The notes beneath the pieces are model-generated. The model saw only the letters and a list, made by a program, of their open reading frames with translations, had not been told where the DNA came from and made no database searches. From the NCBI RefSeq assembly GCF_020923435.1, contig NZ_CP087263.1, forward strand, positions 2,065,970 through 2,129,969: a stretch of 64,000 nt of DNA. Reading direction: 5' to 3'. The position numbers and the translations under genes were made by a program. This document shows, one piece after another, positions 18,763 through 27,596 of the stretch. Position 1 is the first letter of the stretch, and each line of letters starts with the position of its first letter. Source of the DNA: Brevibacillus humidisoli (GTDB lineage Bacteria > Bacillota > Bacilli > Brevibacillales > Brevibacillaceae).

Positions 18763-18897
18763 AAAAAAGAGGGTGTCCCAAAAGCCATGAATAATGGCTG
18801 AGGGATCCCCCTTTTTTTTCAATCTAGAAAAACAAAAAGAAACCATCCTTTGGTAAAATGTAAGTGCGACCCAACACATACAAAAGGAGTGGTTTCT

Positions 18898-20466
18898 TTG
18901 TACATTCAATATACCATGGATCAACTTTGTTTACCAATGGATGTAGAAGAGGACATTCCCGCCAATCATCTCGTTCGTGTGGTCAACGCCGCTGTCAATC
19001 GTCTCGACGACGCCATCTTTGACGCGGCTTACCCCGGAGGCGGACGAGACAGCTATCACCCCAAGATGCTCACCAAAATCATCATCTATGCCTACACCCA
19101 GCGCATCTACTCTTCTCGCCAGATTGCCAAGGCCGTCCGTGAAAACATAATGTTCATGTGGATCGCAGGCAGACAACGTCCGGACTTCCGCACCATCAAC
19201 CGCTTTCGCTCGGAACGAATGAAACCCGTACTGGAGACTGTGTTTACCGCCATTCTTCAATTCTTGGTCGAGGAGAATTACGTGCAGCTGGAGCATTACT
19301 TTGTGGACGGTACCAAGATCGAAGCCAATGCGAATCGGTATACGTTTGTTTGGGGAAAGGCTGTCGTCAAGCACAAAGCCAAGCTCCAGGAGAAAGTGAA
19401 GACCTTGTTTGCCACCATTGAGGAAGCCGAAAAGCAAGAAGAAGGAGCGCACGGGGGCCAAGATCTTCGCGAGCTGGGCGAGTCCTCTACCCTCACAAGT
19501 GAAAAGCTGGAGCATGCCGTCAAGCAATTGGAGGAACGCCTGCAGGAGAAGCCAAAAGACAAGCCACTAAAGAAGGCGGTTCGCACCATCCGCAAAGACC
19601 TGCTTCCTCGCCTCCAAAAGTATGAAACACATGAGAAGATACTAGGCACTCGAAATAGTTACAGCAAAACGGACCCTGACGCTACCTTTATGCGAATGAA
19701 GGAAGACCACATGCGAAACGGCCAGCTCAAACCTGGCTACAATGTGCAGATTGGCACCGAAAATCAATTCATTGTCGGCTACAGTGTGCATCAGCGGCCG
19801 ACCGATACGCGCTGCTTTATCCCTCATCTTGAAAAAGTAAAGGCGCAGATCGGAAAGCTACCGAGAAGCGTCATCGCAGATGCGGGTTATGGCGGCGAAG
19901 AGAATTATGACTATCTCGAACAAAACGAAGTCGAAGCCATCGTCAAATACAGCACGTATCACCGCGAAAAAAGCAAGGCATGGCAAAGGGACATCAGCAA
20001 GATCGACAACTGGACGTATAACAGTGAGCAAGATACGTGGACATGCGCAGCGGGGCAAACCCTCCATTTCCGAAGAGAGAGCAAGGAGAAAACGGAAAGT
20101 GGATACGAAATCGTGTACCGTCATTACAGAAGCGCCGGTTGCGAGGACTGTCCGTTGAAGTCTCAGTGTACGAAAGCCCAAGGCAATCGCGAAGTCAAAG
20201 TCAGCATGAAGTATTTGCGGCTAAAGAACCAAGCAAAGCAGAAGCTCCGCAGCGAAGAAGGGTATGCCCTGGCAGTGAGGCGCATGATTGAGCCGGAGCC
20301 CGTGTTTGGTGCTATGAAGAACAATCGAGGGTTCAAAAGGTTCCTGCTTCGAGGCTTACCGAAAGTAAGTCTGGAGGTCGGGTGGCTTTCCCTTGCCCAC
20401 AATTTGCTCAAGAAGGCTGCAGTGGACGCCCAAAGACAAGGAGCTAAGCGAGAACAGGTCGCTTAG
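18898..20466 (+). CDS. IS1182-family DDE transposase
   Basis: About 522 aa. The N-terminal DUF772-type domain (DYHPKMLTKII-like region, residues 35-120) is followed by the DDE core: first Asp in HYFVDGTKIEANANRY, second in VIADAGYGGEENY, Glu in the MIEPEPVFGAMKNNRG region. A cysteine cluster (CEDCPLKSQC) lies before the last motif. A lysine/glutamate-rich coiled stretch (about 160-240) interrupts the core, as is common in the family. I chose the TTG at 18898, eight bases after AAGGAG, instead of the upstream ATG at 18850. The frame is intact, so the element may be active. Confidence 0.9.
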   Translation: MYIQYTMDQLCLPMDVEEDIPANHLVRVVNAAVNRLDDAIFDAAYPGGGRDSYHPKMLTKIIIYAYTQRIYSSRQIAKAVRENIMFMWIAGRQRPDFRTINRFRSERMKPVLETVFTAILQFLVEENYVQLEHYFVDGTKIEANANRYTFVWGKAVVKHKAKLQEKVKTLFATIEEAEKQEEGAHGGQDLRELGESSTLTSEKLEHAVKQLEERLQEKPKDKPLKKAVRTIRKDLLPRLQKYETHEKILGTRNSYSKTDPDATFMRMKEDHMRNGQLKPGYNVQIGTENQFIVGYSVHQRPTDTRCFIPHLEKVKAQIGKLPRSVIADAGYGGEENYDYLEQNEVEAIVKYSTYHREKSKAWQRDISKIDNWTYNSEQDTWTCAAGQTLHFRRESKEKTESGYEIVYRHYRSAGCEDCPLKSQCTKAQGNREVKVSMKYLRLKNQAKQKLRSEEGYALAVRRMIEPEPVFGAMKNNRGFKRFLLRGLPKVSLEVGWLSLAHNLLKKAAVDAQRQGAKREQVA

Positions 20467-22822: not shown

Positions 22823-22859
22823 AAAAAATAAGACGGGTTCCCTAATGAGAAGGGATCCC
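22823..22859 (-). terminator. Terminator at the end of the RiPP-like cassette
   Basis: A 9-bp stem (GGGATCCCT / AGGGAACCC, one mismatch) with a 7-base loop, then GTCTTATTTTTT on the minus strand, 70 bases after the M50 stop. It separates the cassette from the chemoreceptor gene. Confidence 0.7.
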
Positions 22860-22928
22860 CTCTGTCGTTGTTCATCAATCTCACATCATTGCTTTCTTGG
22901 TCTTCCTTGCTTTTTTGCTGCTGTTTTT

Positions 22929-24012
22929 TTATGTTGGATCGACTAAGAGGCCGAACGTTCGGTAACCCGCTGCAGCCGCTTCCGCTCTTGATACGTACGA
23001 CACTACAATGATAAATGGCACAAGCGTGAGCAGGATCAGCAGCATGCCATCCACAAACGCCCACGAGAAAATGGATTGATGATATATGTTGCCTACAATT
23101 CTGACGATGAAGTCGATGGCGATTTGAAGTTGAAACGCGTAAAAGAACCAAACCGTCCATCCCAAGCCAAAAAGATAAAACCAACCGTACCATTGAATCA
23201 CCTTTTTTTCATGATCGGTTACATACTCCCACATGGCTAGCTCATCGTCCGAGAGTCTAAAGAAAAACCTGCGCAAATAAAGCCTTGTGTTGGCGAGCAA
23301 GTTCTGACAGCGGAACAGTGTAGTAAAAACGTAATATATGTCGGTCTCCATAAAAAACATGAATTGAAAAACGAGCGACATGATGATGATCAGATTCACC
23401 ATCTGCAAGAAGGCAACGACCTCGATGGGGACCGAAAGCCACCCTACATCGTGTGCAAACAGAACCCAGATTCCAAGGGACAAAAAAGTCACATCCCATG
23501 CCATCCCCGCGAAGTAGGCCCGGTATCGTTTTGCAGGGGGAAGCAGCACGATATTGGACATGTTTGTTTCAGCAACGGCAAAAACAAGCCGATGGCTGAG
23601 TCCGATGCGACTGCCCACTCCGAGGGAACGAGCGGCCATCAAGTGAGCCAATTCGTGTAAAAAGACCAGCACCCAACCTGTGGCAAAAGCAACAATCAGG
23701 GATATGGACAGGGAAGGGGAGAAAAACAGATCGGCATGCTGTGGAATCAACCCTGGCTGCAGCAGACAAAGCAAGACAGCGGAGAGAAATAGGATGAGAT
23801 ATAGACCAAACGAGATACGAGTTTTTCTTCGACGATTTGTTTCACTTCGGCGACCGTCTTTCCCTGATCAAGCAGATGAATAATCTGTACTCCGATAGTC
23901 GGGGTACAATGTAGTTGCTCACATCGGGTCGGCCAATTAAGATTTCCTCCTCGTTCTCCTCTCTAGACTGCAACTCGTGCATGATGAGGATGCTGTCTTC
24001 CGATACCTGCAC
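22929..24012 (-). pseudogene. M50 membrane metalloprotease with damaged N-terminal recognition domain
   Basis: The C-terminal 280 residues read as an intact polytopic M50 protease: HELAH zinc motif near the start, about seven membrane segments, ending LLVDPT. The true start appears to be the GTG at 24012, with AAAGGAG upstream. From there about 37 codons read well (SEDSILIMHELQSREENEEE and on to NYIVP). The reading then continues in a different frame from about 23910 (IGVQIIHLLDQGKTVAEVKQ), and the membrane part is in a third frame from about 23830 (RKTRISFGLYLILF). The middle segment looks like part of a PqqD-like peptide-recognition domain, and some of it seems deleted. No start codon with a ribosome site would give the intact protease half alone. 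Confidence 0.7.
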
Positions 24013-24029
24013 GGTCAGCACTCCTTTCT

Positions 24030-25208
24030 CTATCCTCTACGAACGAATTCGGGAATGCCCGTATCATATTGCCCCAGTACTTGAAAGATACGGTGTTCAC
24101 CCGTCCCCCTCCCGCATGTCGGGCAATCGGCTTCATTCCTTCCCCATTCGATGACTGTATTCTTCTCAAAGGTATGTAAACGAATCGAGATGATTTTATT
24201 CAGAGACTGAACCTCTGCAATCCCCGTTATCAGATTCATCGCTTCTGCTGCGATCATACCGGTTGTGATCATCACATTGGGACAGACAGCGGCGGTGGGG
24301 TGGCGATAATTGGATTCCATCACTTCTGATAAAAAGCGAGGATAGCTCTCTTCCCTGCTGCGGTGCAAATGCAGGCAATCGACACAACCGGTCTACCCGG
24401 GAATGATGGTGTATACCATTCCCTCTGTCAGATTGATGCCTCCCCCGATCAAGGGAATACCCAGCTCTACACACGCCTGGTTGACCATACGCTGCAGAAT
24501 GACAAATGGTTGATCAGCGGCTAGCAAGACAAGATCGCTCCCTTGTATCGCTGTACGAATCTCGTCTACCGATCTCAATTGGACAGAAAGCGTCTCAATC
24601 GCAAGGTCAGAATTGAACTCATTGACGAAGGTTTGAGCAACCTCTATCTTTTTGCGTCCTATATCACCCTCTTTAAACATGAACTGCCGGTTTAAATTAC
24701 TCAACTCTACTGTATCAAAATCCAAAATCCGGATATGGCCAAATCCCAGCCCGGTCAAATTAACCAGAATACTGGAGCCAAACGCTCCCATGCCAAGGAC
24801 AGTGACCCTTGTTTGCAAAAGCTTTTCCTGTACGGCGTACGGACTGTAGTGTGCATCGGTAAAAAAAGAGAAATAGCGAACGTTGGCTTTATATCTCTCC
24901 CGTTGCCGATCTGTCAAGCTATTTTGGGTGCCGAACGATTCATTCTCGATAAACCCAAGAGTATTTAATTCATCAATAGCCTCCTGAACATCTTCCAAGT
25001 CTAACTCCCGATACTTCAACAACAGCTCGTTGTGAATCACTTCCACCGATCGACTTCCATCCAACATTTTTGTCAGTTCGCTTACAAATCCTATTTCATC
25101 TTCTACATCAACCGCAATCCCGGGAACATCGCCCAGACGAAGCGAACGATCGTCAAACCGGTAAATGGGGTGAATCGCTTTAAATTTGGGATACAAATCT
25201 ACCGCCAC
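24030..25208 (-). pseudogene. E1-like (ThiF/HesA) adenylating enzyme, RiPP-type, with in-frame amber stop
   Basis: A 392-codon frame interrupted only by a TAG at 24393-24395 (codon 272). Residues 1-100 look like a winged-helix peptide-recognition domain of the PqqD/RRE type (FRFDD-like start, acidic helices, then ELNTLGFIEN). Residues 130-392 form the E1-like fold: GMGAFG nucleotide loop near 139-144, DFDTVELSNLNRQ near 163-174, and a four-cysteine zinc site (CVDC at 275-278, CPTC at 362-365). Such enzymes adenylate peptide C-termini or assist YcaO cyclodehydratases. The GTG at 25208 was chosen because GGGGGAGGAG precedes it and the earlier ATG (25268) lies inside a hairpin. Without read-through the product loses its zinc site. 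Confidence 0.78.
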
Positions 25209-25238
25209 TCGCCTCTCCTCCCCCAAAAATGAAGTAAG

Positions 25239-25273
25239 AAGAGAGACGGCATAAGACCATGCCGTCATCTCTT
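25239..25273 (-). promoter_or_regulatory. Strong hairpin between candidate precursor and E1-like gene
   Basis: A 14-bp stem with one bulged base: AAGAGA-T-GACGGCAT, loop GGTCTT, ATGCCGTC-TCTCTT. It lies 37 bases after the small ORF and 31 bases before the E1-like start. No long T-run follows directly, so it is more likely a partial terminator or mRNA-stabilising element than a full stop. RiPP operons often use such a hairpin to make more precursor than enzyme. Confidence 0.8.
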
Positions 25274-25309
25274 CGTGTCAAAAACCTGAACGTGATTCAT
25301 CTGAGGTGT

Positions 25310-25372
25310 TTAAACGTTGGACGTGAAAACCGTCGTGCGAACACTTTCCACTTTTTTTGCCTTAATTTTCAT
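25310..25372 (-). CDS. Candidate RiPP precursor peptide, 20 aa
   Basis: ATG to TAA encodes MKIKAKKVESVRTTVFTSNV. It begins about 38 bases after a near-consensus promoter and is followed by a strong hairpin and then the E1-like enzyme with a recognition domain. The composition (basic leader-like first half, Thr/Ser/Val-rich tail ending Asn-Val) suits a small modified peptide. The ribosome site is weak (GTGAG about 12 bases upstream), which counts against it. I recognise no homologue. The call rests on position and architecture. Confidence 0.5.
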   Translation of the reverse strand: MKIKAKKVESVRTTVFTSNV

Positions 25373-25416
25373 AAATTCTAAACTCACAAAATATTTTGTA
25401 TTTTATTACAATTTTT

Positions 25417-25444
25417 ATTATAAAGACAATCCTGTGCCTGTCAA
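25417..25444 (-). promoter_or_regulatory. Sigma-A promoter of the RiPP-like cassette
   Basis: TTGACA (25439-25444), 16-bp spacer, TATAAT (25417-25422): both hexamers match consensus exactly. The surroundings are very AT-rich. It points at the 20-codon ORF and the E1-like gene and lies beyond the opp terminator. Confidence 0.85.
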
Positions 25445-25625: not shown

Positions 25626-26585
25626 CTAACTGTACAGATGACAAGCCGCATAGTGTCCTGGCTCTACCTCTTTCCACACTGGTTCGATCTCCGCACACTC
25701 CGGCATTGCTTTCGGACAGCGAGTCCGGAAATGACAGCCGCTCGGCGGGTTCATCGGGCTAGGGACATCACCTTCCAGGACAATCCGCTCCCGCTTCCGC
25801 TCAATCTCCGGATCCGGGATCGGAATCGCTGACAGGAGGGCTTGTGTATAAGGGTGGAGCGGTTTGTCGTACAACTTGTCGCTCTCAGCAATCTCCACCA
25901 TTTTCCCCAAGTACATCACGCCGACACGGTCGGAGATGTATTTCACCATTGACAGGTCATGGGCAATAAACATGTAGGTCAAGCCCATTTTTTCCTGAAG
26001 TTGTTCCAACAGATTGACTACCTGCGCCTGCACCGACACATCAAGTGCCGAGATCGGCTCGTCACAGACAATAAACTTCGGCTCTACCGCCAAGGCACGG
26101 GCAATCCCGATCCGCTGACGCTGTCCCCCGGAGAATTCATGAGGGAACCGGTTCATGTGCTCAGGGTTTAGGCTGACGAGCGAAAGCAGTTCTTGAATCC
26201 GCTCTTTCCGTTTTTGGCCTGTTGCCAAGCCGTGGATGTCCAATGCCTCTCCGATGATGTCGCCAACGGTCATCCGCGGGTTAAGGGATGCGTACGGGTC
26301 TTGGAAGATCATCTGCATGCTGCGCCGCATCGCCTTCATTTCCTGTGCATTCAGCTGATTGATGTTTTTGCCGTCAAATATTACTTCGCCTGCTGTCGGC
26401 TCATACAGACGCAGAATGGTTCTGCCTGCCGTCGACTTTCCGCAGCCTGATTCACCTACGATCCCCAGCGTTTCGCCACGCTTGATATCAAAGGTGATGT
26501 CATTGACCGCCTTTAACGTATGGTCGCCTACTTGAAAGTATTTCTTCAGGTTGCGAACCTGTAACAACGCTTCTTGATTTGACAA
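25626..26585 (-). CDS. oppF: Oligopeptide ABC transporter ATP-binding protein OppF
   Basis: 319 aa ATPase: Walker A GESGCGKS, signature [14 protein letters not shown], Walker [13 protein letters not shown] and switch His (IAHDLS). The C-terminal oligopeptide/dipeptide domain has paired cysteines ([14 protein letters not shown]), as in OppD/OppF. It pairs with OppD to power import of peptides delivered by OppA. Last gene of the operon, 15 bases after oppD. The substrate is assigned from family only. Confidence 0.93.
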
Positions 26586-26600
26586 AGTTGCCCCTCCTTC

Positions 26601-27596
26601 CTAAGAACCAACTCGGCTTTGTGCGAGCGGATGCTGCAGCCAACAAGCCGTCTTTTGTGTTTTGCTTACCTCACCTAGTTCGGGATCGATCTCCTGGCAC
26701 ACCTTCATCGCTGACTCGCAGCGGGCAGTGAATCCGCAGCCCACCGGCGGTCTCAACAGGTCCGGCGGCGTACCGAAGATCGGGGTAAGCGGTTCGTCCT
26801 TGTTCAGGTCGAGGCGCGGAACTGAACGAAGCAGCCCTTTTGTATAGGGATGCTGCGGGTTGTAGAAAATATCGTCAACCGTTCCAGTTTCAATCACTTT
26901 CCCGGCATACATGACGATGACCCGGTCACAAACCTCGGCAACAACCCCCAAATCGTGGGTAATCAAGATAATGGAGGTATCCATTTTCTGCTGCAAGTCT
27001 TTCATCAGTTCAAGGATCTGCGCCTGAATGGTCACGTCAAGTGCTGTCGTCGGCTCGTCGGCGATCAACAGCTTGGGTGAGCAGGCGAGCGAGATCGCGA
27101 TCATCGCACGCTGACGCATTCCACCGGAAAATTGGTGAGGGTACTGATCGATCCGTTTATCCGGCTGAGGAATCCCAACCATCTCAAGCAGTTCAACAGC
27201 GCGGCTGCGAGCTGCCGATCTACTCATTTTCTGGTGCTTGATCAAGCCTTCAACGATCTGGTTTCCTACCGTCATCGTTGGATTAAGGGATGTCATCGGA
27301 TCCTGGAAGATCATGCCGATATCTTTTCCGCGAATTTCTTCCATGTCCTTGTTCGATTTTTTGACTATGTCCTGCCCTTGAAAGAGGATTTCCCCTGATT
27401 TGATTTCACCTGGAGGCATCGGGATCAGCTTCATCAATGATTGTGCGGTCACCGACTTCCCACAGCCGGACTCGCCGACAATCGCCACTGCCTCCCCTTT
27501 ATTCACGTGAAAGTTTACGCCGCGAACAGCTTTTACTTCACCGGCATAGGTGTGAAAAGATACGTGCAGATCGTTTACTTCGAGTATGCGCTCCAT
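26601..27596 (-). CDS. oppD: Oligopeptide ABC transporter ATP-binding protein OppD
   Basis: 331 aa ATPase: Walker [14 protein letters not shown], signature SGGMRQRAMIAISL, Walker B LLIADEPTTALD and switch His (ITHDLG). The C-terminal domain ends with a CGFTARCESAMKVC cysteine pair. It forms the nucleotide-binding heterodimer with OppF. The gene begins 11 bases after oppC. Confidence 0.93.
   Translation of the reverse strand: MERILEVNDLHVSFHTYAGEVKAVRGVNFHVNKGEAVAIVGESGCGKSVTAQSLMKLIPMPPGEIKSGEILFQGQDIVKKSNKDMEEIRGKDIGMIFQDPMTSLNPTMTVGNQIVEGLIKHQKMSRSAARSRAVELLEMVGIPQPDKRIDQYPHQFSGGMRQRAMIAISLACSPKLLIADEPTTALDVTIQAQILELMKDLQQKMDTSIILITHDLGVVAEVCDRVIVMYAGKVIETGTVDDIFYNPQHPYTKGLLRSVPRLDLNKDEPLTPIFGTPPDLLRPPVGCGFTARCESAMKVCQEIDPELGEVSKTQKTACWLQHPLAQSRVGS

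Follow-up and report, generated by a model that had tools for sequence, protein, structure and literature searches.

The 64,000-nucleotide stretch of the Brevibacillus humidisoli genome analysed here (contig NZ_CP087263.1; hereafter the window) carries a broken copy of a gene cassette that is intact in related bacteria. The locus is probably a decayed, compact cassette for a ribosomally synthesized and post-translationally modified peptide (RiPP), which consists of a short precursor peptide, an adenylating E1-like enzyme (E1) with an N-terminal RiPP recognition element (RRE), and an M50 protease that also begins with such an element and would cut and release the modified tail of the peptide. 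The conservation of the genes and their order, of the domains, and of the active-site motifs was established by calculation, as was the decay of the copy in the window genome. The parts of the locus are not chance features: the peptide, the gene order, and the hairpin between the peptide and the E1 gene all recur in relatives. An initial annotation of this DNA had already proposed such a peptide system; its recognition domains, its conserved short open reading frame (ORF), and its independence of a YcaO enzyme have been borne out, but it did not state that the copy is decayed.

In the family of the window genome, E1 matches (counted at E below 1e-40, all 39 family genomes also having a weaker ThiF match) and matches to the M50 profile A2 (counted at E up to 1e-12) co-occur in the same 16 of 39 genomes, that of the window included; E1 is followed by M50 in 16 of the 17 family loci. 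On a wider scale, the M50 profile was run on two samples of 398 genomes each: it matched 35 genomes of the class-wide sample, 19 of which belong to other families, and 2 of the phylum-wide sample, one being the window genome. The set from outside the family comprised 21 stretches (L099 and L101-L120) taken from 18 of the 19 genomes, the weak match G595 being left out; E1 and M50 are adjacent, with M50 downstream, in seven of these stretches, which belong to six genomes, and in L114 E1 stands one gene away. A tree of 26 E1 proteins united the window, the family loci, and L101 in group A (support 100/99) and recovered a group B (support 100/100). A search of genome contigs returned one remote Helicobacter locus. 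Viral origin was rejected, as viral contigs contained no M50 relative and their 12 E1 matches were partial and at most 41% identical.

As the initial annotation had anticipated, a conserved short ORF precedes E1 in relatives: in 19 of 24 loci it encodes a peptide of 18-24 residues composed of an MKI..KKVE-like leader and a variable tail. The peptide MKIQAKKVESVRTTAVAA is found, tail included, in ten loci, and MKIQAKKVESVRTTLLNAT in L039. In particular, L051 (L051:7590-10163, minus strand, genome G030) contains nine precursors with a shared leader and seven different tails, alongside two genes for E1 and one for M50; L054 has three precursors, L055 and L101 have two each, and single copies occur in L102, L105 (with a TTG start), L108, and L109. 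The L106 stretch begins within the apparent last precursor codons, and L104 reads N at the precursor position. An exact DNA leader pattern was searched in the 39 family genomes and in the 398-genome class sample, with the reversed pattern as a control. Within the family, all 14 genomes that contain it are among the 16 with the cassette, and the 23 family genomes without the cassette lack it; the reversed pattern is absent from all 39. Given the conserved leader and this confinement to cassette genomes, a chance short ORF was rejected. Moreover, a stable hairpin occupies the gap between the peptide and E1 in all 19 loci with an adjacent precursor, an arrangement that would be in keeping with expression of the peptide at a higher level than the enzymes. 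The tail ends in Val in the window and in A, V, T, S, I, Y, or C in relatives, and only the L106 fragment ends in Asn. The tail AVAA has no side-chain nucleophile and most tails lack Cys; Cys pairs occur in the L101 tails, and six of the seven clade-B loci with a visible tail carry a His three residues from its end, but the three peptides of L054 do not.

The first ~100 residues of E1, likened by the initial annotation to a PqqD-type recognition domain, were examined as a profile of 96 residues alone, built from 15 sequences. Among solved structures, this profile matched PaaA at E 5.3e-11, the next match being at 0.047. A profile of the full enzyme matched PaaA at 2.7e-48 (positions 3-348, which take in the recognition domain) and MccB at 4.1e-46 (from position 97). 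The predicted recognition domain of E1 is convincing by profile alone and weak in single sequences, in which mixed Pfam matches to PqqD and to PaaA-like_N were obtained in 4 of 15 N-termini each, at E up to 0.1. Arg172, Lys185, and Asp230 are invariant in the E1 alignment A1 and also present in the MccB alignment, and CxxC pairs are near invariant; the three conserved residues suggest that E1 would activate a carboxylate of the precursor in an ATP-dependent manner. The open part of the window E1 matches Pfam ThiF at E 2.8e-42, and single-sequence structure prediction for its unbroken part (24396-25208) gave a predicted local distance difference test score (pLDDT) of 36.6.

Two other roles for the E1 enzyme were considered. 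PADLOC E1-E2 models match its adenylation domain (best E 2.8e-17), as might be expected if it were part of a ubiquitin-like or anti-phage conjugation system; however, these matches cover only the ThiF domain that such enzymes share, the N-terminus is a peptide-recognition domain, the conserved neighbours are the precursor and M50, and no E2, JAB, or ubiquitin-like gene was recognised by eye in the ORF lists, though no dedicated search was made. This hardly credible reading was rejected on the limited extent of the PADLOC matches; M50 matched no PADLOC model. It is also very improbable that E1 merely docks the leader for a YcaO enzyme encoded elsewhere, as in azole-type RiPPs. A YcaO match exists somewhere in 13 of the 16 cassette genomes (approximately 52 kb from the cassette in G004 and, as the single match of the window genome, 1.2 Mb away), and E1 has weak matches to SagC-type and TOMM models. 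On the other hand, the ATP-site residues of E1 are conserved, most tails lack Cys (L101 is the exception), and G030, G032, and G033 carry the cassette with no YcaO match anywhere in the genome. These three genomes contradict a YcaO docking partner, unless their E1 is idle, and agree with the initial claim that no YcaO is needed.

The protease has the layout of an M50 membrane protease. Its active-site motifs, HExxH (His171, Glu172, His175) and Thr275-Asp276, are invariant in eight relatives, the downstream Asp being presumably a metal ligand, and five to seven hydrophobic segments in all three proteins checked make it a multi-pass protein, although the Pfam Peptidase_M50 match of the window protein is weak and below cut-off (E 0.0064). 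Over most of its length, the window protein is 51-57% identical to the M50 proteins of relatives. A recognition domain at its start, which the initial annotation had suspected, is suggested by weak Pfam PqqD matches, which at E up to 0.1 were obtained for 9 of 13 members; the best is at 6.1e-6, and one, that of L050, lies above the curated cut-off. When compared with solved structures, the N-terminal M50 profile gave no significant match, PqqD chains appearing at 0.68 and 0.95; it does align with the N-terminal profile of E1 (probability 76, E 2.3e-5).

In the window copy, the reading frames of both enzymes are interrupted. The E1 gene contains an in-frame TAG (24395-24393), beyond which homology to intact relatives continues in the same frame of the alignment. 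The M50 homology is spread over three frames; the frame breaks near 23903, and at the junction near 23820 approximately 50 residues of the relatives, i.e., the rest of the PqqD-like domain and a linker, are missing. Moreover, the peptide ORF lacks a Shine-Dalgarno sequence, whereas the listed relatives have a GGAGG-like one (AGGGGG in L044). Since the genome is assembled into one contig of 4.9 Mb and is 99.97% complete, sequencing errors in all three genes are unlikely. The promoter, hairpin, and peptide frame are retained, and the remainders of E1 and M50 are still 49-57% identical to relatives, as they would be in a copy that still functions and whose stop and frame breaks reflect sequencing errors or recoding; nevertheless, separate lesions in both enzyme genes, one of them the loss of ~50 residues, and the absent ribosome-binding site make this very unlikely in such an assembly. 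No second cassette copy was found in the window genome, which has a single M50 match and whose other E1 matches are at most 36% identical, to the adenylation domain; the two other genomes of the genus contain neither an E1 of the cassette kind nor an M50 match.

In intact copies, the leader (~14 residues, MKI..KKVE....T) would be bound by the recognition domain of E1, which would activate a carboxylate of the peptide, most likely that of the C-terminus, as an acyl-adenylate. A ring, an amide, or a nucleotide conjugate could then form in the tail of 4-10 residues, and at the membrane M50, via its own recognition domain, would cleave between leader and modified tail and release the latter. Two reports state, in the available parts, that RRE-E1 enzymes of RiPP pathways act by binding the leader and adenylating a carboxylate for subsequent attack by a nucleophile; the published products of ThiF-like RiPP pathways are diverse (phosphoramidate, bicyclic core, thiolactone, imide, indolylamide) (PMC12150305, PMC12250964). 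Among M50 proteases, EpeP is thought to perform both cleavage and export, and TglG and TmoG cut at the C-terminus, according to the part available of PMC10885120. The clade-B His and the Cys pairs of L101 may point to ring or conjugate chemistry of more than one sort in one cassette type. The role of the cassette may be to supply a small secreted signal or antagonist. In an alternative, pearlin-like pathway, the peptide would be a reusable scaffold: E1 would activate its C-terminus for the attachment of a small group, and M50 would clip only the modified C-terminal residue or residues. The identity of the whole peptide, tail included, in ten loci would suit a scaffold, but tails that vary strongly between and within loci, as in the nine copies of L051, do not, and no gene for a peptide aminoacyl-tRNA ligase was recognised by eye in the ORF lists, a dedicated search not having been made; this pathway is considered unlikely.

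Neighbouring genes were mostly read by eye from ORF lists, few being scanned with Pfam. Read in this way, the 23 E1-M50 loci showed no conserved exporter after M50 and no ABC transporter gene directly after it on its strand. The gene after M50 is TetR-like in L039, a same-strand TPR-like gene in eight of the loci L040-L049, and various elsewhere, and the contig of L105 ends soon; in L054, there is an ABC-type ATPase on the opposite strand. The lack of a conserved exporter gene beside M50 would be explained if M50 itself released the product at the membrane. In more distant plasmid relatives, E1 is followed by ABC genes (Niallia taxi, Sporosarcina) or by an MFS gene (Macrococcus bovicus). On a Priestia koreensis plasmid (L137:4540-8725), three identical 24-residue ORFs are accompanied by an E1, a binding protein, an MFS gene, and an M50-like gene whose annotation reads 'hypothetical protein'.

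Several observations weigh against the reading of the locus as a compact RiPP cassette of precursor, E1, and M50. The precursor is not always in place: in L050, L052, and L053, E1 and M50 are present without a precursor within 700 bp, the exact leader pattern finds none in G031 and G033, and the precursor of G032 lies ~180 kb from its E1. Outside the family, the leader pattern alone is near noise, though it is telling within the family: in the class sample, it occurs in 20 of 398 genomes, of which 15 are cassette genomes and five have ORFs unlike precursors, it misses seven cassette genomes, and the reversed pattern matches six genomes. The partnership of the enzymes is likewise incomplete. 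L055 has E1 and precursors with no M50 beside them, and PqqD-M50 proteins stand without a cassette-type E1 in 13 of the 21 stretches from outside the family and in five paralogous family loci (L095-L098 and L100); thus, M50 is not an exclusive partner of E1. In L039, the MFS-like gene behind the TetR-like one is found 0.8 kb beyond M50, and the MFS gene of the Priestia koreensis plasmid follows M50. Finally, we infer the site and product of the reaction, the cut, and the release from sequence.

The lone precursor-like ORF of G032, MKIQAKKVEQVSPTLMTSV (L131; pattern match G032:C1:2715967-2715992), is the one that lies ~180 kb from the E1-M50 pair. As for the protease, two further gene contexts without E1 were observed. 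In L107 (L107:5962-8440), a PqqD-M50 protein like that of the window immediately follows a membrane protein in whose gene a Pfam scan showed MASE12 and HD domains, and a similar arrangement was recognised by eye in L099, L110, L111, L113, L115, and L116. In L096 (L096:4487-7930), PqqD-M50 is followed by a TPR-repeat protein of ~700-750 residues, again by a Pfam scan of the gene, and by eye a similar arrangement occurs in L095, L103, L117, L118, and L120.

The coordinates of the window locus are collected in the table below. The promoter, the 20-codon ORF, the 14-bp hairpin, and the two enzyme genes of the initial annotation were each located on the minus strand as described. The closing terminator is there as a hairpin followed by a T-rich tail, but it is absent from the terminator list of a consensus scan. 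The E1 gene starts at GTG 25208, preceded by the ribosome-binding site GGGGGAGGAGAGG, and M50 likely starts at GTG 24021, 8 bases past the E1 stop.

Features of the cassette locus, given as positions within the 64,000-nucleotide window; the cassette lies on the minus strand
Feature	Position	Strand	Remarks
Promoter-like site TTGACA-16-TATAAT	25417..25444	-	12/12 consensus matches
20-codon precursor peptide ORF MKIKAKKVESVRTTVFTSNV	25310..25372	-	open, without Shine-Dalgarno sequence; leader common to relatives
14-pair hairpin in the gap between peptide ORF and E1	25240..25272	-	-19.7 kcal/mol, z -5.2
E1-like (ThiF family) gene with N-terminal PaaA-like recognition domain	24030..25208	-	in-frame TAG 24393-24395
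M50-like membrane protease gene with N-terminal PqqD-like domain	~22929..24021	-	broken; HELAH present
Terminator-like hairpin, then T-rich tail	22831..22863	-	-17.4 kcal/mol, z -3.3

Just upstream of the cassette promoter and on the same strand are peptide importer genes, OppF-like and (by eye) OppD-like, at 25626-27596. The initial annotation allowed that this proximity may be coincidence; by eye in the ORF lists, no importer was seen beside most relatives, but L050, L052, and L053 adjoin genes resembling those of oligopeptide-binding lipoproteins. An IS1182-family transposase gene (18850-20466) lies ~2.4 kb beyond the cassette.

In terms of its predicted protein content, the cassette belongs to the ThiF-like RiPP pathways (microcin C, pantocin, enterofaecin, ind), within which it forms a variant: its protease is of the RRE-M50 type, and the adjacent genes include no conserved exporter. 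It has a ThiF-family enzyme with an N-terminal RRE and, in the window and in 19 of 24 loci (L050, L052, and L053 being exceptions), a short precursor gene beside the enzyme; 3 of 16 cassette genomes are free of any YcaO match. The initial annotation had regarded it as a minimal system of adenylation and membrane proteolysis in a class not known to have been described. The genes, their order, and their domains agree with such a system; however, adenylation-based RiPPs are already described in the available parts of PMC12250964 and PMC12150305, and only the RRE-M50 partner without a conserved exporter is therefore new. In the main texts of the open-licence literature, no description was found of a set of precursor, RRE-E1, and RRE-M50 without a transporter; the term 'M50' does not occur in the available text of PMC12250964, and the available part of the ind paper places other RRE-ThiF groups in its Figure S1 (PMC12150305). 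It is possible, with the balance tilted against it, that the cassette represents a self-sufficient two-enzyme RiPP class, in which RRE-E1 would provide the sole modification and RRE-M50 both release and export, without a transporter, immunity gene, or regulator, one leader being read by two recognition domains. Within that class, the nine precursors of L051 with their different tails might, equally tentatively, reflect amplification to a small peptide family. The cassette is spread across one family and scattered other genera, and it would test an M50 protease as a stand-in for an exporter and one leader serving two recognition domains. Because there are only two enzyme genes and the precursors are short enough for synthesis, its chemistry is directly testable.

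Compared with known systems, the cassette shares with microcin C (MccA, MccB) a short precursor and an RRE-E1 enzyme with a C-terminal CxxC pair, and the E1 profile matches MccB. However, MccB acts on a C-terminal Asn (PMC12250964, in the part available), whereas the window tail ends in Val, and among relatives an Asn end is seen only in the L106 fragment, unlike the E. coli type. The ind cluster of Streptococcus (IndA, IndF, IndP) likewise combines few genes, for a precursor, an RRE-E1, and a metalloprotease; the latter, IndP, is of the M16 type and accompanied by a transporter (PMC12150305, in the part available), whereas the cassette protease has the M50 HExxH/TD pattern and its own recognition domain, and no conserved transporter was seen by eye. 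By description, the cassette protease is also similar to EpeP, TglG, and TmoG, which are membrane M50 proteases beside RiPP precursors (PMC10885120, in the part available); unlike in those pathways, no radical SAM epimerase or tRNA-dependent ligase was recognised by eye at the cassette loci.

Enterofaecin (EnfA, EnfB) resembles the cassette in its 21-residue precursor with a basic leader, its RRE-E1 enzyme, and activation of the C-terminal carboxylate, and this enterofaecin or WWIII type, likened here by description, differs in that its tail is WW-I-type and it has several genes for ABC transporters; the available text names no M50 (PMC12250964). In the cassette, W is absent from the tails listed, and no same-strand ABC gene was seen by eye directly after M50 in the 23 loci. 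On a Niallia taxi megaplasmid (L133:4802-4867), an unannotated ORF of 21 residues with the ending WWIII precedes an RRE-E1-like gene and genes for ABC transporters, as in the published WWIII type; the E1 of the Niallia taxi plasmid is 35% identical to that of L039. In the pantocin A pathway, PaaA acts on the side chains of the two Glu residues of a Glu-Glu-Asn core, and the PaaB oxygenase and PaaC exporter are encoded adjacently (PMC12250964, in the part available). By contrast, the cassette has M50 in place of PaaB and PaaC, its tails mostly lack Glu (the exception is AECVAC in L101), Glu-Glu (EE) is absent from the listed tails of the window and its relatives, and no PaaB-like oxygenase gene was recognised by eye, no profile search having been made. 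The E1 enzymes also differ, the cassette type having CxxC pairs and PaaA none in the alignment. Like the cassette, pantocin A has a precursor with an N-terminal leader, of 30 residues in its case (PMC12250964, in the part available), and by the profile matches given above, PaaA is the best solved relative of the cassette E1, both as a whole enzyme and in its isolated recognition domain.

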